From Lachnospiraceae bacterium UBA1818 (GTDB taxonomy: Bacteria > Bacillota > Clostridia > Lachnospirales > Lachnospiraceae): a DNA stretch of 59,316 bases. Positions 35,438 to 48,259 of this stretch are shown in pieces. The translations under genes were made by a program, and so were the position numbers. Where the stretch lies: NCBI GenBank assembly GCA_904419285.1, contig CAJFQZ010000012.1, forward strand, positions 1 to 59,316, given 5' to 3'. The number at the start of each line of letters is the position of its first letter. The stretch's first letter is position 1. The notes below the pieces were generated by a model that saw nothing but the letters and a program-made list of their open reading frames with translations, was not told the DNA's origin and did not search any database.

Positions 35438-37702
35438 CTATTTTAAAAGCTTCCCAAGCACGTCGGTGACTTTCTTGACGGGGATGATCTCCAGCCTGCT
35501 TTTTACTTCGTCTGCGACGTCGTCCAGATCATCCATGTTCGCGGCGGGGATGAAGACTTTCGTGATCCCTGCCCGCTGCGCGGCCATCAGCTTCTCCGGG
35601 AGTCCGCCGATCGGCAGGATGCCGCCTCGGAGAGAGACTTCCCCTGTCATGGCGCAGTCCGTATCGACTGCTTTTCCCGTGATGAGAGAAGCCAGAGCCG
35701 TGGTGAGCGTGATCCCCGCCGAAGGTCCGTCCTTCGGAACGGCGCCTGCCGGAACATGAATGTGAAGATCGTGGTCCTCAAATACTCTGCTCTCTTTCGG
35801 GTAGAGCGATTTTACGAGGCTCAGTGCGATCTGGACGGATTCTTTCATCACATCGCCCAGCTGCCCTGTGATCAGCAGGTTCCCTTTTCCGGCGGTGAGA
35901 CGGCTTTCGATAAAGAGGATCTCGCCGCCTGCCCGTGTCCAGGCAAGGCCGGTAACCACGCCGGGAATCTTCTCTGTCAGCTTTCGCTCATGGTGCATCT
36001 GTTTTTTCCCGAGATAGTCGGGCAGGCTGCTCTTTGTGACAGTGATGGAACTGCCCTCGTTTTTTACGAGCCTTACCGCGGCTGTCCGGCAGAGCGTATC
36101 GATCAGCTTCTTGAGATCGCGGACGCCGGATTCCATTGTATACTCGTCGATCATGCGCCGGATGGCGCCGTCCGTCAGCTTCAGCATCTTCGGCGTGATG
36201 CCCATCGCTTTCTGAGCCTTGGGGAGCAGATGCTTCCGGGCGATATGAAACTTCTCTACAGCGGTGTAGCCGGGGAAAGAGATGACTTCCATCCGGTTCA
36301 GGAGAGGTTCCGGGATCGTGTCCGCAGTGTTTGCGGTGCAGACGAAGAGCACGTTGGACAGATCATAGGGAACGTTCATATAGTGGTCTGTAAATGTATT
36401 GTTCTGCTCCGGATCCAGTACTTCCAGGAGTGCGCTTGCCGGATCTCCGCCATAGTCCTTGGCCAGCTTGTCCACCTCATCCAGCACCATGACCGGGTTG
36501 GAGGCGCCGCTGCGCTTCATTCCCTCCATGATCCGCCCCGGCATGGCGCCGATATAGGTCCTGCGGTGGCCGCGGATCTCCGCTTCGTCGCGGATGCCTC
36601 CCAGACTGATGCGGACATATTCACGGCCCAGCGCGCGGGCAATGCTCTGTCCGATACTTGTCTTGCCCGTGCCGGGCGCGCCCACAAAGAGCAGGATGGA
36701 GCCGTACTGCTTCTTGTTCAGAGCCATGACAGCGAGCTGCTGGATGATGCGCTCCTTGACTTTCCTGAGCCCGTAGTGGTCTTCATCCAGAACTGCTTCC
36801 GCCTTGTCCAGATCGATGGGTTTTACTTCGGGAGCCTTCCATGAAAGACTGGTCACAAAGTCAAGGTAATCATAGAGAAGCCCGTACTCATGGCTCTCTT
36901 TCCCCTCCTGGCGCATCCGGTTGAGCACCTTTTCGGCTTCGCGTCTTGCCTCCGGGTTCATTCCGGATGATTCGATTTTCTTTTCGAATTTCCTGATGTC
37001 CGATACATTTTCCGGGTGCATGTCGTCCAGCTCTTTCTGCAGATAGTCGATCTGCTTCTTGATGGCTGCCTCCCGGTAAAGCTGTTCCTGATCCCCCTTC
37101 TGGGCATTCTGTGCTTCTTCTGAAACCTTGGCGACTTCAATGAACTCGCTGACAGCGCCGATGATCAGGCTGTATCTCGTGCGGATGGAATCGGCTGCCA
37201 GGATCCCGTACTTTTCTTCTGCGGTCAGATTCAGATAATCCGCCAGCGCGCATGCAAGATCATTGATGTTCTTCCGCTGAAGGATGAAGCTCCTCGCCCA
37301 GAGTCCCCACTGGTAACCCTGGACGAACCGGAGAAGTGCTGTGCGGAGTTCTGCAAACTGCTGTCCGGCCTCTGCGTCGGACATGTCTTCCGTGTCCGGG
37401 CGGATGGAGGCGGACAGTGTGATCTGGTCATCCGAGATCTGCAGATCAGACAGATCGACCCGGTTCAGCGTGCGCACTGAGACCGCGTCTTCGTCTCCGA
37501 ATCCTTCTGCCCGCGCGGAAAGCCCGATCGGATAGAAGTCCTCCGGCGTAAATCCACTTTCCTTCTCGTTTTTCAGGAAAATGAAAAGGATATCAGAACC
37601 TGCCTCGATGGACTCACCGCCGAAGCCGGAGAAAAACTCTTTCTTAAAATAGTAGGAAACATCCGGCAGGAGAAGGATGTTGTAAACTGGTCTTATTACC
37701 AT
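35438..37702 (-). CDS. lon: ATP-dependent protease Lon (endopeptidase La)
   Basis: A 754-residue AAA+ serine protease that degrades misfolded and regulatory proteins. It has an N-terminal LON substrate domain, a coiled segment around residues 190-260, Walker A GAPGTGKTS near 345, Walker B (VMVLDEVDKLAKDYGG) near 410, sensor region NRMEVISFPGYT, and a protease domain with the Ser/Lys dyad: Ser in KDGPSAGITLTT and Lys in GGLPEKLMAAQRAGI. A CIRCE operator lies 20 bases upstream of the start, placing the gene under HrcA heat-shock control. AAGGGGG lies seven bases before the ATG. Confidence 0.95.
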   Translation of the reverse strand: MVIRPVYNILLLPDVSYYFKKEFFSGFGGESIEAGSDILFIFLKNEKESGFTPEDFYPIGLSARAEGFGDEDAVSVRTLNRVDLSDLQISDDQITLSASIRPDTEDMSDAEAGQQFAELRTALLRFVQGYQWGLWARSFILQRKNINDLACALADYLNLTAEEKYGILAADSIRTRYSLIIGAVSEFIEVAKVSEEAQNAQKGDQEQLYREAAIKKQIDYLQKELDDMHPENVSDIRKFEKKIESSGMNPEARREAEKVLNRMRQEGKESHEYGLLYDYLDFVTSLSWKAPEVKPIDLDKAEAVLDEDHYGLRKVKERIIQQLAVMALNKKQYGSILLFVGAPGTGKTSIGQSIARALGREYVRISLGGIRDEAEIRGHRRTYIGAMPGRIMEGMKRSGASNPVMVLDEVDKLAKDYGGDPASALLEVLDPEQNNTFTDHYMNVPYDLSNVLFVCTANTADTIPEPLLNRMEVISFPGYTAVEKFHIARKHLLPKAQKAMGITPKMLKLTDGAIRRMIDEYTMESGVRDLKKLIDTLCRTAAVRLVKNEGSSITVTKSSLPDYLGKKQMHHERKLTEKIPGVVTGLAWTRAGGEILFIESRLTAGKGNLLITGQLGDVMKESVQIALSLVKSLYPKESRVFEDHDLHIHVPAGAVPKDGPSAGITLTTALASLITGKAVDTDCAMTGEVSLRGGILPIGGLPEKLMAAQRAGITKVFIPAANMDDLDDVADEVKSRLEIIPVKKVTDVLGKLLK

Positions 37703-37905: not shown

Positions 37906-38514
37906 CTAACTCATAAGAAAATTCAATGATCCCGGCGGGTTCTCCGTACCTTTTTCAAGCAGTGAGATCAGTGCTCGGATAGTGCGTTCGCTCTGCTCAC
38001 GGGTGGAAGGCACCAGGGTATCGTCCGTCTTCACGGTAAGCACGATCAGTACGATCTCCGCGAGAGCTTCGGGGTCGTCGAAGCGGATATCTCCGGCGGC
38101 GATGCCCTGCCGTATGATCTCAGCGAGCACCGGTTTGAGCTCTGTGATAATGTGGTTGATATATTTCTGGTGGATGAAAGCCTTCTCCTGTGCGCCGGTG
38201 CCTTCGCTGTCCCCTGATCTTACGAACTCGGCGGAAGAATTGCGGCATGCCTGAAAGATCATAGCCATCCTCGTAAAAGGTGAGATCTCAGTCTGGGAAG
38301 AAAGTGCTTTGGCTGTCCGGAGCGGTTTCTCATAGCTTCGCTCTACCAGCGCTTCGAAGATCGCATCTTTGGACGGAAAGTAATAATAGATGCTTCCTTT
38401 TCCTATCCCTGCGGTATGAGCGATCTCGCTGACAGAGATGGTCTGAAGCTTCTGGTTTTCCAGCAGTTCCTGCAGGGCGTCCAGGATGCGGTCGTATTTT
38501 AATTGATTTGCCAT
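37906..38514 (-). CDS. TetR family regulator of the condensation-enzyme operon
   Basis: A 202-residue TetR protein. The DNA-binding domain reads ISVSEIAHTAGIGKGSIYYYFPSKDAIFEALV near residues 22-53. The C-terminal helical domain resembles fatty-acid or xenobiotic-responsive TetR proteins. The ATG at 38514 is chosen because AAAGGA lies nine bases upstream and the product then starts in family fashion (MANQLKYDRILDAL). It diverges from the SCP2-like gene at 38788; two identical-type palindromes in the shared promoter region are natural binding sites, so it likely represses that operon and perhaps itself. The ligand may be the operon product or its acyl precursor. Confidence 0.9.
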   Translation of the reverse strand: MANQLKYDRILDALQELLENQKLQTISVSEIAHTAGIGKGSIYYYFPSKDAIFEALVERSYEKPLRTAKALSSQTEISPFTRMAMIFQACRNSSAEFVRSGDSEGTGAQEKAFIHQKYINHIITELKPVLAEIIRQGIAAGDIRFDDPEALAEIVLIVLTVKTDDTLVPSTREQSERTIRALISLLEKGTENPPGSLNFLMS

Positions 38515-38695
38515 TGTATGTCGTCCTTTCCCAAATGCTGCCGGCGGAAGAACCGGAGCCTGATCAGACGCGGGAGCATCTGATAGTAACAATAAGAATC
38601 AGTTCAAAGTATAGCACATCAAAGCCGGAACAGCCAGCTAGAATACTACACAAAAAAGAAAAAGATTTTTCATCTTATTTTGACGTGAACGCCGG

Positions 38696-38752
38696 TTGAC
38701 CAGCGGTCGGAAAGATGGTAATCTAACAAGAGAAAAGAAATGACCAACGGTC
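38696..38752 (+). promoter_or_regulatory. Promoter and paired TetR operators of the condensation-enzyme operon
   Basis: TTGACC (38696-38701) and TAATCT (38719-38724) are separated by 17 bases. Two short palindromes, GACC-AGC-GGTC (38698-38708) and GACC-AAC-GGTC (38742-38752), lie over the -35 element and downstream of the -10. A third half-like site, GATCGGTC, occurs at 38765-38772. Binding at the first two would block initiation and escape. Confidence 0.65.
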
Positions 38753-38787
38753 GAAAATGGCTGTGATCGGTCGAAAAGGAGGATATT

Positions 38788-39138
38788 ATGACATACGCGG
38801 ACATGTTTTCGAAGGTAAAGGGAATGCTGATGGATGCCGATGTGAGCGATATTCACGAGCATCTTGCCTATCAGTTCAATATCACGGGCGAGGCAGAAGG
38901 AATCTTCTACGCAGAGGTGAAGGACGGACAGCTCTATGTCGAGCCGTATGAGTACTTTGACCGCGACGCCATGTTCACCTGCTCTGCAGAGACACTGTTC
39001 AAGATCGCGGAAGGCAGGACAGACCCGATCCTCGCAGTGACGTTCGGGAGACTGAAGGTGGAAGGAAATATCGACAAGGCATTAAAGCTGAAGGACCTGA
39101 TTAACAGCAAGAAGAAAAAAGGGAAGAAAAGCAAATAG
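38788..39138 (+). CDS. SCP2-like sterol/lipid-binding protein
   Basis: A 116-residue single-domain protein of the SCP2 sterol-transfer superfamily: a central beta-sheet phrase EGIFYAEVKDGQLYVEP, the alternating DAMFTCSAETLFKIAEGRTDP and the end VTFGRLKVEGNIDKALKLKDLI are characteristic. Such proteins bind acyl chains or other lipids in a hydrophobic pocket. A lysine-rich tail (KKKKGKKSK) could contact membrane. It is the first gene of the operon with hydrolase, condensation-type enzyme, carrier protein and ligase, so it may present or shuttle a lipid substrate or product. Confidence 0.88.
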   Translation: MTYADMFSKVKGMLMDADVSDIHEHLAYQFNITGEAEGIFYAEVKDGQLYVEPYEYFDRDAMFTCSAETLFKIAEGRTDPILAVTFGRLKVEGNIDKALKLKDLINSKKKKGKKSK

Positions 39139-39166
39139 GACATTCAAGAAAAGCAGGTGAAGAAAA

Positions 39167-40111
39167 ATGGGCAGATTACTGAAAGGAGCAGCGGCGCTTC
39201 TGGGCGTGCTCACGGCGGCGGAAGCCGGCGGGACCGCATATTTCTACAGAAGGACCATGATGCGGTATAACGCGAAGACAGAACGGACGATGAAGATGTC
39301 CGGCGTGGACTGGGAAAGCTATTTCCCGATCATGCATGAACGGCATGACTGGATGATGGAGCAGCCCCACGAGGATGTGTGGATCACCTCCCATGACGGA
39401 CTGAAGCTCCATGGTACATATTTCGAGGGAGACGGCGGAGATAAGGCGGTCATCTGTTTCCACGGCTATACAAGCCAGGGGATCAATGATTACGGAAGTC
39501 TTTCCTATTATTATCTGAACCATGGGTTCCGTATGCTCCTGATTGATGAGCGGGCACACGGAGAGAGCGAGGGAACCTATATCGGTTTCGGCACCATGGA
39601 CCGTCTGGATGGTATGGAGTGGATAAAATGGCTGGTCGGAAAGATGGGAGACGATGCCCAGATCCTCCTTCACGGCAATTCCATGGGGGGAGCTACGGTA
39701 TGTATGATGAGCGGCTTGAAGCTGCCGCCTCAGGTGAAAGGAATCGTTTCCGACTGCGCCTTTACATCAGCCAAGGATGTGTTTACTCATGTGCTCCACA
39801 GTATGTATCATCTGCCGGCATTCCCGATGATCCAGATCGCGGATAAGCTGAATAAGAGAAATGCAGGCTATGGCCTCGATGAATGCAATGCTGCGAGAGA
39901 AGTGAGAAAGGCCAGGGTGCCGATCCTTTTCATCCACGGGGCGAAGGATGTATTCGTTCCCTGCTGGATGTGCGAGGAGATCTATAAGAACTGCGCTTCG
40001 CCAAAGACGAAGCTGATCGTAAAAGAGGCGGGCCACGGTGAGAGCTACTACAAAGACACCGAAGCATACGAAAAGGCCCTGGATTCATTTATCGGAGGAA
40101 TAATGAAATGA
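39167..40111 (+). CDS. Alpha/beta hydrolase with N-terminal membrane segment
   Basis: A 314-residue serine hydrolase. A hydrophobic stretch (residues about 5-22) followed by Tyr/Arg residues suggests membrane attachment. The hydrolase core has the oxyanion FHGYTSQG near 103-110, nucleophile Ser in LHGNSMGGAT near 171, catalytic Asp in IHGAKDVFVP near 260-269 and His in AGHGESYY near 290. It resembles the YqkD/S9-like group. It ends overlapping the next start (ATGA at 40108-40111), so it is coupled to the condensation enzyme and may release or trim the product as a thioesterase or deacylase. Confidence 0.88.
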   Translation: MGRLLKGAAALLGVLTAAEAGGTAYFYRRTMMRYNAKTERTMKMSGVDWESYFPIMHERHDWMMEQPHEDVWITSHDGLKLHGTYFEGDGGDKAVICFHGYTSQGINDYGSLSYYYLNHGFRMLLIDERAHGESEGTYIGFGTMDRLDGMEWIKWLVGKMGDDAQILLHGNSMGGATVCMMSGLKLPPQVKGIVSDCAFTSAKDVFTHVLHSMYHLPAFPMIQIADKLNKRNAGYGLDECNAAREVRKARVPILFIHGAKDVFVPCWMCEEIYKNCASPKTKLIVKEAGHGESYYKDTEAYEKALDSFIGGIMK

Positions 40112-41514
40112 TGAGGACAAGAAAAGGACACAAAGTGTATCCGCTGACAGTAGCACAGAAGTTTCACCTTTACTACGCACCCCACTGCCCGAATATGGCG
40201 GTGCTGAACATCGGGACAAGCCTGACCATCGAGGTAGAGCTCGACTGGGATCAGCTGAAGAAATCCATCAACGAGGCATATGCGAGAAGCGAGGGGATGC
40301 GTGTCCGTTTCGCAAAAGACAAGGAAGGAACCTGGTATCAGTATGTGATGGATCCGGAAGAGAAGGACATAGAGTTCGTCGATTTCTCGAACGGGACGAT
40401 CGAAGAGGCAGAGGCCGAGATGCAGAAATGGACGGCGGTGCCCTTCAAGATGTTTGATGCGCCTCTGACAAGGATCGTCATGATCAAGATGCCCGACGGA
40501 TTCAACGGAGTGTACTTCCTCGGAAACCATATGATCGTGGACGCACAGTCACTGATCTGTTTCCTGAAGGATATCATCGAGCTGTACTGTAACGCGAAAT
40601 ATGAAGGCGTTCCGTACCCCAAGGATATGGCGTCCTACGTCGAGCAGATCCAGCGTGATTTTGCCTATGAGGCGGGAAGCAAGGCGCAGTTGAGAGATAT
40701 CGAGTACTTCCAGAAAGAGATCGAGAAGAGCGAACCGATCTACAACGACCTTCACGGAACAGCGAAGCTGGAGTCTATGCGTGAGATGTTCAAGAATCCT
40801 GATCTGAGATCTGCGTTCTGCGTTACAGACGACACGAAGTCCGCGCTTGATATTTTCCATCTCGAGGCGGAGCCGACGAAGCGCCTGATGGACTTCTGCG
40901 AGAAATATCATGTATCGCTGGCATGCCTGCTCCTCATGGGACTGCGCACCTATTATCAGAAAATGAACGGATTTGACGACGTATCGCTGACGACAACGAT
41001 CGCACGACGCGCGACGCTGAAGGAGAAGAAATCCGGCGGCACAAGGATCCATTCCTTCCCGTTCCGCACGATCTTTCCACAGGATATGAAGTTCATCGAC
41101 GGAGTCTATGCGATCCGCGACAAACAGAACGAGTACTTCCGTCACGCGAACTATGATCCGACCGCCTATTTTGCATACCGCGCAAAGACATATCCGCAGC
41201 CGAACCCGGGACTCGGATATGAGCCCATCTCGCTGACATACCAGCCGCTCACATTGAAGGAAAAGGGTCTGGATCAGCTGGGCGATATCCGTTACAAGAC
41301 AAAATGGTATCCTAACGGCATCTGCCCGCAGGGAATGTATCTGACTGTGATGCACCGCCCGGAGGACAACGGACTGGACTTCAACTTCGAACACCAGATC
41401 AAGGCGGTATCCAAAGAAGAGCTTGAGTACCTGTACTATTATCTCTGCAAGATCATGTTCAAAGGCGCGGAGAATCCGGACCTGACGATCGGCGAGATCA
41501 TTAAGCTGGTTTAA
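40108..41514 (+). CDS. Stand-alone condensation-domain-like acyltransferase
   Basis: A 468-residue protein of the NRPS condensation/acyltransferase superfamily. The opening YPLTVAQKFHLYY corresponds to core motif C1. The active-site motif HHxxxDG appears as GNHMIVDAQS near residues 136-145: the first His is Asn, but the second (catalytic) His and the Asp are kept. A later VSLTTTIARRATLKEKKSGG and HSFPFRTIFP correspond to the second half of the fold. There are no fused adenylation or carrier domains; these are the following genes. It probably joins an acyl or aminoacyl group, held on the carrier protein, to an amine or alcohol. Confidence 0.78.
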   Translation: MMRTRKGHKVYPLTVAQKFHLYYAPHCPNMAVLNIGTSLTIEVELDWDQLKKSINEAYARSEGMRVRFAKDKEGTWYQYVMDPEEKDIEFVDFSNGTIEEAEAEMQKWTAVPFKMFDAPLTRIVMIKMPDGFNGVYFLGNHMIVDAQSLICFLKDIIELYCNAKYEGVPYPKDMASYVEQIQRDFAYEAGSKAQLRDIEYFQKEIEKSEPIYNDLHGTAKLESMREMFKNPDLRSAFCVTDDTKSALDIFHLEAEPTKRLMDFCEKYHVSLACLLLMGLRTYYQKMNGFDDVSLTTTIARRATLKEKKSGGTRIHSFPFRTIFPQDMKFIDGVYAIRDKQNEYFRHANYDPTAYFAYRAKTYPQPNPGLGYEPISLTYQPLTLKEKGLDQLGDIRYKTKWYPNGICPQGMYLTVMHRPEDNGLDFNFEHQIKAVSKEELEYLYYYLCKIMFKGAENPDLTIGEIIKLV

Positions 41515-41596
41515 GGATGAGATCCCGGACCGCGGAGGAAAACAGTACAAGCAGGAAATTCAGATAGAGAAATAAGGAGCAAAAAGGAGAACGATC

Positions 41597-41830
41597 ATGT
41601 TTGAAAAATTAGTTGACATTATCTGTAACTATGTGGAGGTTGAGCCGGAGGACATCCGTCCGGAGTCCCGCTTTATGGAAGATCTTGGATTTACATCCTT
41701 TGACTTCATGAGCATGCTCGGAGAGATCGAGGATGAGTTCGACGTGGAGGTCGAGCAGACAGAGGCGGCAAATATCCGTACAGTCCAGGAAGCTGTCGAT
41801 TATCTTGAGAAACTGACGGCTGAGTCATAG
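41597..41830 (+). CDS. Acyl/peptidyl carrier protein
   Basis: A 77-residue four-helix carrier protein. The 4'-phosphopantetheine attachment Ser34 lies in EDLGFTSFDFMSML, where the usual DSL is TSF; the Ser and following hydrophobic residues are kept. It is strongly acidic, as carrier proteins are. AAGGAG precedes the start. Lying between the condensation-type enzyme and the AMP-dependent ligase, it is most likely the dedicated carrier of this pathway and not the fatty-acid synthase ACP. Confidence 0.92.
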   Translation: MFEKLVDIICNYVEVEPEDIRPESRFMEDLGFTSFDFMSMLGEIEDEFDVEVEQTEAANIRTVQEAVDYLEKLTAES

Positions 41831-41854
41831 GAAACAGAAACAGGAACAGAAGGC

Positions 41855-41901
41855 AGAGACAGGCTGGAGCGGTCTGTCTCTTTATGTCCGCGCTGACGCG
41901 G
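41855..41901 (+). promoter_or_regulatory. Two stem-loops between carrier and ligase genes
   Basis: AGAGACAG pairs with CTGTCTCT (41855-41862, 41874-41881; TTT follows) and CCGCG pairs with CGCGG (41888-41892, 41897-41901; CTGA loop). They may partly terminate or stabilise the message, setting a lower dose of ligase than carrier. Confidence 0.4.
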
Positions 41902-41921
41902 AGAAAGGATATAGAAAAGAG

Positions 41922-43430
41922 ATGCTTTGCAGTACCGTACGTGAGATCCTGACGGGTACAGAGAAGAAATACGGCCCGGAGGATGCGATCCGTTATAAAA
42001 TAAGTAAGAATGAAGTTGAATCAAAGACTTATACGCAGCTAAGAGAGGACAGCGAAAGCTTTTCCAGCGTGCTCAGAGACATGGGGGAGCAGGGAAAGCA
42101 TATCGCCGTTATCGGGATGACCTCCTACGCGTGGCTTGTGACCTACTTTGGAACAGTCGACAGCGGGAGCGTCATCGTGCCTCTGGATGTGAACCTCCCG
42201 GCGGAAGACGTGTGCGATCTGATCGCCCGTTCTGATTCCACGGTGCTCGTCTATGACGAGGTGAGAAAGGATGTGGCGGAGATCGCGAAGGAACGCTGCC
42301 CGCAGCTGAAGATCATGATCTCCATGCAGCAGGAGTCGCATGACGACCATGCCTATTCTTTCTGGAAACTCCTGGAAGAGCACAGGGGAAGCTTTGACTA
42401 TGCGCCGGAGCCGGACCAGCTCTGTACGATCATGTTTACATCAGGAACTACCGGAAAGAGCAAGGGCGTCATGCTGACGCACAGAAATGTGGCGGAGAAT
42501 GCGACCTGCCTGGATATGAAGATCCCGGAGCGCATTGTGATCATGACAGTGCTCCCGATCCATCACGCATACTGCCTGAGCATGGATGTTTTAAAAGGCG
42601 TGTCCCTGGGCGCTGTGATCTGTATCAATGATTCTCTGATGCGTGTGGCGAAGAATATCAAGCTTTTCAAGCCGGAGATGATCCTGATGGTCCCGCTGAT
42701 GATCGAGACCATGGCGAAGAAGCTGGAGGAGGCTTCCCTTCTACCTGCGAAGATCGTGAAGAACCAGGTGTTTGGAAAACAGTTCCATACGATCTGCAGC
42801 GGCGGCGCTTACCTGGATCCGTCCTATATCGATCTGTTCAAGAAATATGACATCACGATCCAGCAGGGATACGGCATGACTGAGTGCGCGCCTGTCATCA
42901 GCGTCTCCCAGGCATGGAATATCCGGAAGGATGCAGTGGGCCAGCTTCTGCCAAACTGTGAGGCAAAGACAGTGGACGGTGAGCTGTGGGTAAAGGGCAG
43001 CAGCGTCATGCAGGGATACTATAAGATGCCGGAAGAGACGGCGGAGACCCTGGAGGACGGCTGGCTTAAGACCGGAGATCTGGGTTATGTGGACGAAGAC
43101 GGCTTTGTCTATCTTACCGGGCGCAAGAAGAATCTGATCATCACGAAGAACGGCGAGAATGTCTCCCCCGAGGAACTGGAGAATGCCCTGAGCACGAACC
43201 GACTTGTAGGAGAGGTGCTCGTCCGTGAGAATAACGGTGTGATCGAGGCGGAGATCTATCCGGATCAGGATTACGTGAAGAAGAAAAGGATCAAGGATGT
43301 GCGGGCAAAGCTGCAGGAGGTCATCGATGAGTACAACCGCACTGCGGCTCCCCAGAAGAAGATCTACAGCCTGATCGTCCGGGATACGGAGTTTGAGAAG
43401 ACGACGACAAGGAAGATCAAGAGATTCTGA
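41922..43430 (+). CDS. AMP-dependent acyl/amino acid ligase (ANL superfamily)
   Basis: A 502-residue adenylate-forming enzyme. The P-loop-like MFTSGTTGKSKGVMLTHRN lies near residues 171-189, A5 core GYGMTECAPVIS near 323, and WLKTGDLGYVDEDGFVYLTGRKKNLI near 383 contains the A7-A8 hinge. The catalytic lysine is probably in TTTRKIKRF at the end. A Glu in GENVSPEELE follows. The substrate pocket cannot be decoded by eye; fatty acid, aryl acid or amino acid are all possible. It would activate the substrate as adenylate and load the neighbouring carrier protein. It is the last gene of the operon. Confidence 0.9.
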   Translation: MLCSTVREILTGTEKKYGPEDAIRYKISKNEVESKTYTQLREDSESFSSVLRDMGEQGKHIAVIGMTSYAWLVTYFGTVDSGSVIVPLDVNLPAEDVCDLIARSDSTVLVYDEVRKDVAEIAKERCPQLKIMISMQQESHDDHAYSFWKLLEEHRGSFDYAPEPDQLCTIMFTSGTTGKSKGVMLTHRNVAENATCLDMKIPERIVIMTVLPIHHAYCLSMDVLKGVSLGAVICINDSLMRVAKNIKLFKPEMILMVPLMIETMAKKLEEASLLPAKIVKNQVFGKQFHTICSGGAYLDPSYIDLFKKYDITIQQGYGMTECAPVISVSQAWNIRKDAVGQLLPNCEAKTVDGELWVKGSSVMQGYYKMPEETAETLEDGWLKTGDLGYVDEDGFVYLTGRKKNLIITKNGENVSPEELENALSTNRLVGEVLVRENNGVIEAEIYPDQDYVKKKRIKDVRAKLQEVIDEYNRTAAPQKKIYSLIVRDTEFEKTTTRKIKRF

Positions 43431-43676: not shown

Positions 43677-43746
43677 ATATTCCTGTGGAAGGAGTACAAT
43701 ACAGAGGTATAACTGTACATGTTGAATAAACTCAGGAGGAAAAGGC

Positions 43747-46700
43747 ATGAAAAAAAGAAGATCATTGCAGCTATGATGAGCGCGGCGATGCTGTTTTCTG
43801 TGGTGACCCCTTATCTGCCCGCGCAGGCGGAAGAAAGGAATGCCGTACTGCAGGAGACAGACGCGGAAGCAGAGCGGGAAACGATCAATTTTAACACGGA
43901 CTGGCATTATTACAAAGTGGATGCCGCCGGAGCAGATCAGGCCGCGTTTTCGGATGCCGGATGGGTCTATGTGAACCTGCCCCATTCGACGGATTTTTAT
44001 GATGCGGATAACAAGGATGCATATCTCGGCATCAGCTGGTACCGCAAGGACTTTACGCCGGATCCGTCGCTGGAGGGCAAAGAGCTCCTTCTTACGTTCG
44101 AAGCGGCGATGCAGAAGGCAGAAGTTTATTTAAACGGAGAAAAGATCATGACCCACGAGGGCGGATATTCTCCGTTCGTTATCGATCTGACAGGACTCGT
44201 CAATTATGGAGAGACGAACGTCATCGCGGTCAAGATTGACAGCAGCCCGAACACGAATTTTGCTCCGGGAAAGACGAATCCTGACTTTCAGTACTGGGGC
44301 GGGATCTACGGGGAAGCTTACCTGACTGTGAAGGACCCGGTCCATATCACGGATGCAGTGGAGGCTGACACAACGGCCGGGGGCGGCGTCTTTATCACAG
44401 CGCCGGAGGTCGGCACGGAGAGTGCGGTCGTAAAAGTAAAGACCCAGGTGGAGAACTTAAGCGGAGAGGAGCAGAACGTCACACTCAGGACCGAGATCCT
44501 CAACGAGGACGGGACAGAGGCAGCTTCTCAGGAGAGTACGGAAGAGATCGGAAGCGCTGAGGCATCAGATTTCACCCATGTGCTTACGGTCGATGACCCG
44601 AGGCTCTGGTCCACATACACGCCGGAACTGTATACGGTGCGCACAACCGTCTATGTGGACGGGGTAAAGAAAGACAGCGTGGACACCACATACGGCATCC
44701 GCAAGGTGGAATGGAAGCGGGACGGCCTTTATGTGAATGATGTCCTGACAAAGGTCAACGGAGCAAACCTGCATTCGGAGACGTACATGGTCGGGAACGC
44801 CATGACTGAGAGTGCGATTTATGCTGAAGTGAAACAGTTCAAAGAGAACGGGTTTGATTTTGTGAGAATGTCTCACTATCCTCATGTTCAGGCGTTTTAT
44901 GATGCATGTGATAAATATGGAGTGATGGTCCTGGAATGTGCGTCCGGGTGGCAGTATTTCAATAATACGGATGCGTTCAAGAACAGTACATATGAAGAGC
45001 TCAGGACCACGATCCGCTCCCACAGGAACCATCCGAGTATTATGGCGTGGGAGACGAGCCTGAATGAAAGCAATTACAATGCCGCATTGGCAAAGGAGAT
45101 GAACCGCATCGCAAAAGAGGAGTATCCGACGGACGGCGTGTCCTATGCGTGGACGGCGGGCTGCATCCAGTGGGATGCCTGGGATATCGGCCTTGGCATT
45201 CTGCTTATTTCTTCCGCAGCCAGCGGGATCCCGAGGTCGATATGAGTGAGTACGGTGTAGAGACAGGACCGATGGTCTATATCGCGAATCTCTGGGACAG
45301 CGCCGCGGACAACTCTGAGGTGCGGGTGTTCAGCAACTGTGATGAAGTGGCCCTGTACTATAATGACGAACTTGTAGCGGTCCAGGGACACGATGAGACA
45401 ATGTGGGGCCCCACGGAGATACGAGCGAATCCGGTTCTCCGGGAAGCGGAGCCGGGAAAGAGATCAGTACGGAAAATCTGGAGTACCCGCCGGTCACATT
45501 TGATCTGAGCGCATATACCGCAGGAGAAGGAACTCTCAGGGCGGTCGGCCTGATCGACGGAGAAGAGGCTGCGGAGTATGTAAGGAAAGCGCCGGGCGAG
45601 GCTGCTTCAGTTCAGCTGCGTCCGCAGGACGATTCGGCGCTGAAACTGGACGGAAGTGATGCAAGGCTGGTGTGGATCGACATCGCGGACGCGGACGGCA
45701 CGGTGGTGACGGATGCTTATACGGATGTTGACCTGAGCATTACGGGCCCGGGGCTTATCGTAGGCCCGAAGACAGTACAGACCAGAGGCGGACAGCTGGC
45801 CGTCTGGGTAAAGAGCAAGAGAGGGGAAGGCGAGATCACGCTGACCGCACAGGCAGAAGGCCTTGCTCCGGCATCTGTCACTTTTGCCACAGAGGCGGTA
45901 CAGGGGCTCCCGGAAGTTCCTGAGGGAGGCGATGCCGACGAATACGAATTCGAGCCGGAAGAGGTACAGAACATTTTCTTGGGAAAAGCGACCAGCGCGA
46001 GCACGGAAAATATTAAATCCGATGATTCAAAGAGTGAATATGCAAGATATGCGGTAGATGGAAACAACAATACAAAATGGTGCGCCAGCAGCGGAAGCTA
46101 TCCGCAGTGGTGGATGGCAGACCTGGGAGCTTCGACAAGGATCGAAACACTTCTTCTCTCACTGGAGACATCCGGCGCAGAGTATTACTATACGATCGCA
46201 GTTTCAGATGAAGAGATCACAGACGAAAATGTAAAGGACTGCATCGTTGTCGACAACAGTGCGGGAAGTACGGAGACAGCCTTCGAATTTGAGAATGTCA
46301 GCGGGCGCTATGTGAGGATCGATTTTACGAAATCCTCCAATAAAGAATGGGCAGTGTTAAGAGAAGTGTCCGGTACGGGAGAGAGCACCAACATTGCCCT
46401 GAACAAGCCGGTTGAGGCAAGCTCAGTCAATGTGGCAGGATCCGGCAAAGTGGAAAAAGCAGAGTATGCAAACGACGGAAATCCCGATACACAGTGGTGC
46501 GCAAAAGGTGGACAGGGAACGAGCGGACACTGGTGGCAGGTGAACCTGGGCGATACATACCAGCTGTCTATGGTAAAGATCCAGTTCGAGTTCGAGAACG
46601 CCGGATACAAGTTCGTGCTTCAGGGATCTGTCGACGGTGAGCACTACAGAGATCTTGCAGATTACCGCAGCGGAGACGGATGCGGGAAGAATGTGGAGAT

Positions 46701-48259
46701 CGAATCCGATGATATCGTGCAGTATCTGAGAGTGTACGATATCACGACTAATAATATGGGATCCCGCTGGCCGGTGATCCAGGAATTTGAAGCATATGGA
46801 GAAAAGACAGAGTACAGACCGCTCAGCGTGTCCAGGGAAAAGACAACATATGCGTCTTCCAGCCGTGAAGACAGCATGCCGGAATACGGAAGCAACGGTG
46901 TACCGAACTATTACTGGTACCCGGCAACGCTCGGAGAAGAGTGGTGGCTCGTGGATACGGAAGGGATCTACGAACTTGACAATATCCAGATGACGTGGAA
47001 TGCCGGCGAGGAGCACAGATATCTCATCGAAGGCTCGCTTGACGGAGAATCCTGGTTCACACTGGCGGACCGTACAGAGAACGGTACAGATGACGTGAGA
47101 CCGTATGAGCTGGCGGAAGGGGCAGTGAGGTTTATCCGTGTTACGCTGCCGGAGGGACGCACTTCAGATCAGGGATTCGGTCTGTTTGACGCATATGGTG
47201 TTGAAGCGGCCTCGAGGAGTGTGCTGGAGCTGACCGCACCGGAACCGGTGAAAGTGGAAGCAGGGACGGCGCCGGAGGATATGGAGCTTCCGGAGAACGT
47301 TCTTGTCACCCTGGAGGACGGCGCACAGGCAGCTGTGCCGGTGGAATGGGATCTGACCAGTTTGTCCGTGGAAGGAAATACGGGTACGATAACCGGAACA
47401 GCCAGAGCGATCCCGGGAATCGTTATGGAAGATACTGAGCTTGCCCTTACGATCCAGTACACGGAGAGCGCACAGCCTGTCAGGATCCAGCTTCTCCGGG
47501 CAGCCTATGATCTGGTAAAGGATGCGGATCTTACGGATGTGGTGGAATCGATCGTGGAGCTCTACAATGAGAGGATCAGCGCCGCAGAGGATCTGCTTGC
47601 AAGAGCAGAAGCGGGTGATCCTGCTCTGACCCAGGAAGAGGTGGATCAGAGTGTAGAGGATCTGATCGAGATCGTTCAGTATCTAAGCTTTACAGGAAAC
47701 AAGGACGAGCTTGAGAAAGTCATCACTGCAGCGCAGGAGATGGAAGCGGAGCTGGATAAGTATCTTGAAAAGGGACAGGCGGAATTCCTTGCCGCGCTGG
47801 AGACAGCGGAAAATGTCATGGCAGACGGCGATGCTCTTCAGGAAGAAATCAACGATGTGATGCTTCAGCTTGTCAAAGGAATGGCAGATCTGAGACTCCG
47901 TCCGGATAAATCACTGCTGGAAGAGCTGTTAAAAGAAGCGAACGGAAAGAATAAAGAATCCTACACAGAGGAGTCTTATCAGAATCTTCTGAGTGCGATC
48001 TCCGTGGCAGATGCAGCATACAGCAATTTGGAAGCAGACCAGGAAGAAGTAGACGGCGCGGCAGAGCAGCAGCCTGGACGGAAAGAAGACAGCGTCTGCG
48101 TCAGGCAATGCGTCCGATGCGGGGAACGGAAACGCACAGAGCGCTGCAAAAGCGGTCAGGACGGGAGATAACGCTCATCCTGCGATATACGCGGCAGTGC
48201 TGCTTGCCCTTGCGGCAGGAGCCGGATATACTGTCTGTGGAAGAAGAAAGAAAAAATAA
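43747..48259 (+). pseudogene. Decayed wall-anchored GH2 glycosidase with CBM32 and FIVAR modules
   Basis: One ancestral gene of about 1500 codons now in pieces. A signal peptide and GH2 sugar-binding, Ig-like and barrel parts lie in 43747-45197 (YGIRKVEWKRDGLYVND; acid/base Glu in SLNESNY). The frame is broken four times: at the A7 run just after the AGGAGG-preceded ATG (8 A would restore it); at 45197, where GLG joins HSAYFFRSQRDP and the region with the GH2 nucleophile appears deleted; at GGGGCCCC (45405-45412); and near 48062-48085. Three F5/8-type (CBM32-like) modules, an Ig-like domain, FIVAR repeats and an out-of-frame KAVRTGDNAHPAIYAA tail follow. Similar tails occur in the intact neighbours. 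Confidence 0.82.

Follow-up and report, generated by a model that had tools for sequence, protein, structure and literature searches.

What product would come from an operon that encodes a free-standing condensation enzyme, a carrier protein and an acyl ligase together with a lipid-binding protein and a hydrolase, and that faces a regulator gene of its own? The question is raised by a locus of Lachnospiraceae bacterium UBA1818, found in a 59,316-nucleotide stretch of contig CAJFQZ010000012.1 (hereinafter the window) from a draft assembly of 2.77 Mb in 51 contigs (GCA_904419285.1). An operon at 38788-43430 on the plus strand encodes, in this order, an SCP2-like lipid-binding protein, an alpha/beta hydrolase, a condensation (C) protein, an acyl carrier protein (ACP) and an AMP-forming acyl ligase, and a TetR-family regulator gene lies divergently upstream. 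All six frames are open in the order and on the strands that an earlier note, read from the same letters, had given for a five-gene operon facing a TetR gene, and all six proteins pass their Pfam gathering cut-offs (TetR_N 46.1 bits, SCP2 49.0, Hydrolase_4 49.5, Condensation 109.1, PP-binding 48.9 and AMP-binding 210.7). From sequence comparison, the operon probably encodes synthesis of fatty acid amides (N-acyl amines) in the manner of OaaA/OaaACP/OaaC, the acceptor being a small free amine.

The condensation protein and its OaaC relative

The C protein (40108-41514, plus strand; PF00668) starts 4 bases before the end of the hydrolase frame, an overlap that is also the median across 119 related loci. 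In a phmmer search against PDB sequences its best match is 12kh (465 aa, E 1.1e-108), with a full-length alignment (residues 8-467) at 39% identity, and the remaining seven sequences found at E 0.001, NRPS (nonribosomal peptide synthetase) chains by name or type, score 7.6e-9 or weaker. PDB 12KH is OaaC of Coprococcus eutactus according to the data statement of PMC13142362. As described there, OaaC, its ligase and its ACP give fatty acid amides in vitro: the free-standing ligase charges the free-standing ACP, OaaC transfers the acyl chain from it to a small amine, for example aminovaleric acid, the condensation step itself releases the product, and the pathway product of OaaA/OaaACP/OaaC is oleoyl aminovaleric acid (PMC13142362). 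By homology, the C-ACP-ligase core of the window is of this fatty-acid-amide kind, so that the earlier note's remark that no named pathway was known to it no longer applies to the core.

The relatives of the C protein fall into distinct sets. Of 397 sampled Lachnospiraceae genomes, 58 carry a C homologue at E <= 1e-20. Thirty-nine of them form clade A, with C proteins 51-100% identical to that of the window (one a partial match); 17 loci in 17 genomes at 28-37% identity form group B, one genome (G149) carrying both; and three further genomes have only remote matches at 23-26%, two of them within long open frames. An order-level draw gives matches in 36 of 392 genomes, 30 of them in the family of the window, and a third set (hereinafter A2), of three genomes at 44-49% identity, belongs to a different family of that order. 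At E <= 1e-40 a draw of 398 genomes across the phylum, in which the family is thinly represented, yields no match outside the genome of the window. A second locus set comprises the best 80 of 531 named relatives, all at >= 70% identity; it overlaps with the 39 clade A loci, at least 9 of its contigs being equal in length to contigs of that set, and the two counts must not be added. The nearest named carriers in it belong to Mediterraneibacter and neighbouring Lachnospiraceae, whose names often point to the chicken gut, and the carriers include Mediterraneibacter catenae, M. glycyrrhizinilyticus, Claveliimonas bilis and Merdimonas faecis.

In a C-protein tree of 74 rows the window nests in clade A (38 rows, L041 with its shortened C gene being omitted) with a Shimodaira-Hasegawa-like approximate likelihood ratio (SH-aLRT) support of 99, and OaaC nests with group B (98), not with clade A. 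Eight of 11 additionally fetched group B loci entered the tree and the counts below (L181, L184 and L186 were omitted); the placement of L057 and L058, labelled B, and the deep branch order are unresolved. Three loci with OaaC-like C genes, in which no ACP or ligase was found alongside (L053, L055 and L056), form their own branch (100) next to the OaaC clade. The genome of the window holds one other Condensation-family match, at G000:C8:51081-51989 (L002) within a 1204-aa open frame, which is far from the C protein of the window.

PMC13142362 gives the motif of OaaC-like domains as (D/H)HxxxDS, with Ser in 42%, Ala in 36% and Gly in 17% of 127 OaaC-like proteins after the Asp, and a length range of 300-520 aa for fatty-acid-amide C proteins. 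The protein of the window, with 468 aa and a single Condensation domain over residues 9-463, lies inside that range. Its motif GNHMIVDA was read correctly in the earlier note, with the catalytic His and Asp in place and Asn at the first position; measured against (D/H)HxxxD(S/A/G), in which the second His and the Asp are nearly invariant, NHMIVDA keeps both of these and has Ala after the Asp. The first residue, remarked on earlier, is no defect: among the 38 clade A members it is Asp in 27, Asn in 6 and His in 5. The catalytic His and Asp are invariant (38/38 in clade A, 3/3 in A2 and 25/25 in group B), and the residue after the Asp is Ala in 38/38 clade A proteins and Ser in 23/25 of group B.

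The ACP (41597-41830, plus strand; 77 aa; PF00550) carries the attachment site DLGFTSFDF, whose Ser is kept in all forms listed. The ligase (41922-43430, plus strand; 502 aa; PF00501) scores best with a long-chain fatty-acid ligase subfamily (NF004837), at 254.1 bits under a cut-off of 476; all 25 models shown lie under their cut-offs, and an amino-acid adenylation model reaches 141.5 of 317.4 bits. Its P-loop and C-terminal Lys motif are conserved in most rows. A PPTase-superfamily (phosphopantetheinyl transferase) protein encoded elsewhere in the genome could activate the ACP.

The window and the Oaa system of C. eutactus thus have in common a separate fatty-acid ligase, a separate ACP and a free-standing C protein with the catalytic His and Asp of the (D/H)HxxxD(S/A/G) motif. 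They differ in that OaaC belongs to another clade and the motif of the window ends in DA, not DS, and in that the window has SCP2 and hydrolase genes before the C gene and a divergent TetR gene upstream, a difference judged on group B loci. A canonical modular NRPS, in contrast, carries C, A and carrier domains on one polypeptide and activates an amino acid, whereas the proteins here are separate; the description of the locus as one dissociated NRPS-like module is borne out. VibH and the starter C domains of NRPSs share the condensation fold with the C protein; VibH takes a free amine, and the donors differ from those of fatty-acid-amide C proteins. VibH is not among the eight PDB sequences matched at E 0.001, and its overlay on the condensation fold is shown in a figure legend of PMC13142362.

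Gene order and the predicted TetR operator

The six genes recur as a unit. In the 39 clade A loci the hydrolase gene precedes the C gene in 39 and the SCP2 gene in 37, and the ACP and ligase genes each follow it in 38, the ligase count including the shortened gene of L041, with one more locus cut by a contig end. All five operon genes are present in 35/39 loci, all six genes in 30/39, and the cassette recurs in other genera, so the co-occurrence that the earlier note had wished to see checked is found. An intact divergent TetR gene, taken as a homologue of >= 70% coverage, is present in 31/39. All six genes are present in 67/80 named loci, several of the misses being contig ends; L165, which has TetR, and L170 are without SCP2 although their upstream flanks are long. 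In L062, from a genome of the window's genus (G308), the five operon genes are present, TetR is a 34-residue remnant and the palindrome described below is missing.

Family clustering of the 39 neighbourhoods brings up no further partner gene within 7 kb of the C gene in the available sequence; the most recurrent neighbours, MATE-like and ABC-like families named by eye, reach 6/39 each after removal of antisense shadow frames by eye. Downstream of the operon in the window, a large gene that looks glycoside-hydrolase-like by eye (43719-48171) is split over three overlapping frames, 43719-45245, 45149-45508 and 45403-48171, and is either a pseudogene or an assembly error.

No SCP2 gene is found near the C gene in group B loci. 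A TetR-like gene converges downstream in 12/25 of them, with no BLAST match to the TetR of the window, and a hydrolase homologue (E below 1e-10) lies on the same strand <= 260 bases upstream in 6/25, with weaker matches at that place in L054 and L056, one 801 bases off in L042 and one elsewhere in L048; this hydrolase link is weak evidence, because hydrolases of this fold are common. The A2 loci contain TetR, hydrolase, C, ACP and ligase genes and lack SCP2; among the three (L172, L173 and L174), two have a PPTase gene between ACP and ligase, and L174 has, by eye, a PPTase-like stretch in its ligase frame. The hydrolase may therefore be the older partner, with SCP2 marking clade A.

The TetR gene occupies 37906-38514 on the minus strand (202 aa from the ATG at 38514; the program-made open reading frame begins at a TTG at 38592 and gives 228 aa). 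The gap between it and the SCP2 gene contains two palindromes, predicted operator 1 at 38698-38708 (GACCAGCGGTC) and predicted operator 2 at 38742-38752 (GACCAACGGTC), as well as a possible half-site on the plus strand at 38765-38772 (GATCGGTC). The paired operators of the earlier note are well supported by comparison: GACCN3GGTC occurs in 85 of the 88 usable TetR-SCP2 gaps from 119 loci (39 and 80), in two copies in 33 of them, against a mean of 0.12 gaps and a maximum of 2 in 50 dinucleotide-shuffled sets. The motif was picked from the window, itself one of the 88, and then counted, and the gaps are not all independent. The palindrome also tends to occur where an intact gene does, which points to binding by this TetR: nine of 15 listed loci without an intact TetR were inspected, and seven lack the palindrome (L034, L038, L062, L077, L079, L086 and L123). 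Chance assembly of the cluster is ruled out by the recurrence of the gene order across genera and by the palindrome in 85/88 gaps.

The stricter pattern GACCNNYGGTCGAA has a single match in the assembly (94% complete), which is operator 2, and its backward-pattern control has two. Because the control occurs twice, the count says only that the assembly holds no large strict-site regulon, and because operator 1 does not fit GACCNNYGGTCGAA, further sites could be missed.

The proposed pathway and its rivals

If the operon makes a fatty acid amide, the ligase would adenylate a free fatty acid with ATP and load it onto the stand-alone ACP at its phosphopantetheine arm; the C protein would then move the acyl chain to a freely diffusing small amine that sequence alone does not identify, and amide formation would release the product. 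Fold and company lead us to guess that the cytoplasmic ligand of SCP2 is the acyl chain or the amide and that the hydrolase supplies fatty acid from esters or turns the product over. TetR would repress the operon via GACCN3GGTC until a lipid ligand is present. The earlier note had proposed a small lipidated amide or ester; homology to OaaC favours the amide as the likely product, and the ester is retained below as a rival.

SCP2 (38788-39138, plus strand; 116 aa; PF02036) gives a model with a predicted local distance difference test (pLDDT) score of 80.5, whose best PDB folds are SCP2 proteins such as 3bn8 and 1pz4. The hydrolase (39167-40111, plus strand; 314 aa; PF12146 and PF00561) has a motif-assigned triad S172, D261 and H290, and its Ser, Asp and His motifs are conserved in the listed sequence forms. 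Its best PDB relative by sequence is an archaeal esterase (5g59, 7e-15), and a Foldseek search with its model gives the Pf2001 esterase first, with monoacylglycerol lipase (MGLL) among the matches. The earlier description as a membrane-associated hydrolase holds for the enzyme; the membrane part is doubtful, the N-terminal stretch having a 19-residue Kyte-Doolittle maximum of 1.28 and the first 44 residues being modelled as a helix with pLDDT < 50. Nor need the hydrolase be the release enzyme that it was once taken for, because condensation itself releases the product in the published scheme (PMC13142362).

Several observations weigh against an amide pathway under TetR control. SCP2 and the hydrolase have no role in the published scheme (PMC13142362), and the amide product and its substrate are assigned by homology. 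The grouping of clade A and group B against other C domains (67 rows, OaaC included) has an SH-aLRT of 94 over long branches, with seven distant outgroup rows that include no starter C domains. Between clade A and the clade of OaaC, 17 alignment columns (one a gap) differ consistently; together with 39% identity and separate clades, this leaves room for a change of acceptor or even of bond type. As to regulation, an intact TetR is absent from 8/39 clade A loci, and L158 and L159 keep the palindrome though the fetched stretch contains no TetR.

A tentative alternative, which we hold possible, is that the system serves above all to buffer and detoxify free fatty acids, with TetR as their sensor, SCP2 as a sequestering protein and ligase, ACP and C protein as the set that caps them with an amine, so that the amide is a disposal product and not a signal. 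This is compatible with the amide pathway rather than opposed to it. It draws on SCP2 genes away from the cassette. An SCP2 homologue (E <= 1e-5) occurs in 90/397 family genomes and a clade A C gene in 39, which rules out SCP2 as a cassette-only gene. At 20 SCP2 places fetched without an adjoining clade A C gene, TetR still faces SCP2 in five (L193, L194, L197, L198 and L201), with hydrolase, C and ACP genes gone and, after SCP2, no cassette gene in four (in L201 only ~550 bases are available) and broken ligase pieces in L198. These five genomes all lie outside the 58 that carry a C homologue, and the palindrome is kept in four, being lost in L201; SCP2 under TetR thus seems useful alone. Moreover, 1pz4 was solved with a C16 fatty acid according to its entry title, and some models weakly matched by TetR are fatty-acid regulators. 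These TetR matches, however, are far below the model cut-offs; 15 of the 20 places have no TetR and 15 have no palindrome, three of the TetR-less ones (L191, L204 and L207) having little upstream sequence; and in the decayed cassette of L041 TetR and SCP2 are both missing their starts.

The remnant pairs are most simply read as the outcome of several losses of the synthetic genes in which SCP2 and its switch survived, and this survival would imply a use of SCP2 of its own. In an SCP2 tree built without an outgroup and with 21 open forks, starred branches put the pairs at three or more separate positions; L201 is placed beside L035 (99/85) and L198 beside L086 (92/84, not starred). Set against this, the deletion in L041 cut C and ligase genes and removed the ACP gene along with the two starts just mentioned, the palindrome is present in just one (L200) of the 15 SCP2 places that have no TetR, and the cassettes of L040 and L077 lack SCP2. 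A bolder idea, which we think unlikely, is a producer-plus-tolerance unit in which TetR and SCP2 protect from the amide or its fatty acids and non-producers keep the pair like an immunity gene; if true, gut Lachnospiraceae would share a lipid-signal economy of producers and protected non-producers.

We judge it distinctly unlikely that the C protein is an ester-forming or membrane-lipid acyltransferase whose acceptor is an alcohol or a lipid head group, with SCP2 and hydrolase handling the membrane lipid. A weak match to the AATase model (E 0.012), the possible N-terminal helix and the esterase or MGLL relatives of the hydrolase, and the consistent clade differences from OaaC would fit; the AATase score, however, stays under its cut-off (14.6 vs 22 bits), and the only characterised relative found makes amides. 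Very improbable is the conjugation of sterols or bile acids, by which the ligase would activate a bile acid carboxyl, SCP2 carry it and the C protein join the amine. The SCP2 family name and the occurrence in Claveliimonas bilis suggest it, but SCP2 domains bind many lipids and the best model of the ligase is a fatty-acid ligase subfamily. OaaC, too, uses fatty acids (PMC13142362).

There is next to no chance that these are ordinary fatty-acid-synthesis or D-alanylation (Dlt) parts adjoining by accident: the ACP scores 65-69 bits with type II fatty-acid-synthesis ACP models, just above the cut-off in one case (67.4 vs 66), but the five-gene order is found in 35/39 loci, no other family exceeds 6/39 neighbourhoods once shadow frames are set aside by eye, and a Pfam scan of the six cassette genes finds neither DltB or DltD nor fatty-acid-synthesis enzymes, the wider neighbours having been clustered, not annotated. 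Synteny and gene content rule out such an origin, and the outcome by which the earlier note would have been overturned, ordinary components of either kind, is seen in nothing but the resemblance of the carrier to an ACP.

Inheritance and biological meaning

On horizontal transfer of the cassette, other genes give divided evidence. Identity of a protein labelled Dus by eye falls from 85% in G308, of the same genus, to 70-72% in genera g29 and g202, whereas that of the C protein stays at 82-85% throughout; flat C identity against falling Dus identity suggests transfer. A Lon-like protein gives no such hint, its identity being 76-79% in six genomes that belong to several genera and include G308 and g29. 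Its gene lies in the window at 35438-37702 (754 aa), and of 15 relatives compared, six are at 76-79% (one split over two contigs), seven at 42-46%, and one is without it.

The share of 36% with Ala after the motif Asp suggests that clade A proteins are already among the 127 published sequences (PMC13142362), the only primary work on these enzymes that was recognised in the literature searched. In that literature, which leaves out the clusters of Chang et al. 2021, no description was found of the six-gene class with its operator and remnants. Chang et al. 2021 reportedly dealt with fatty acid amide gene clusters of gut Clostridia, of the same enzyme kinds and the same bacterial class as the window. 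The core is already known; SCP2, the hydrolase and the dedicated TetR switch look like new variation.

Host G-protein-coupled receptors are targets of fatty acid amides made by gut bacteria, and the pathway is described as three enzymes (PMC13142362). The six-gene class extends this set by a lipid binder, a hydrolase and a regulator whose operator can be read. The readable operator makes the inducer directly testable, and the surviving TetR-SCP2 pairs offer a natural experiment on SCP2 acting alone.

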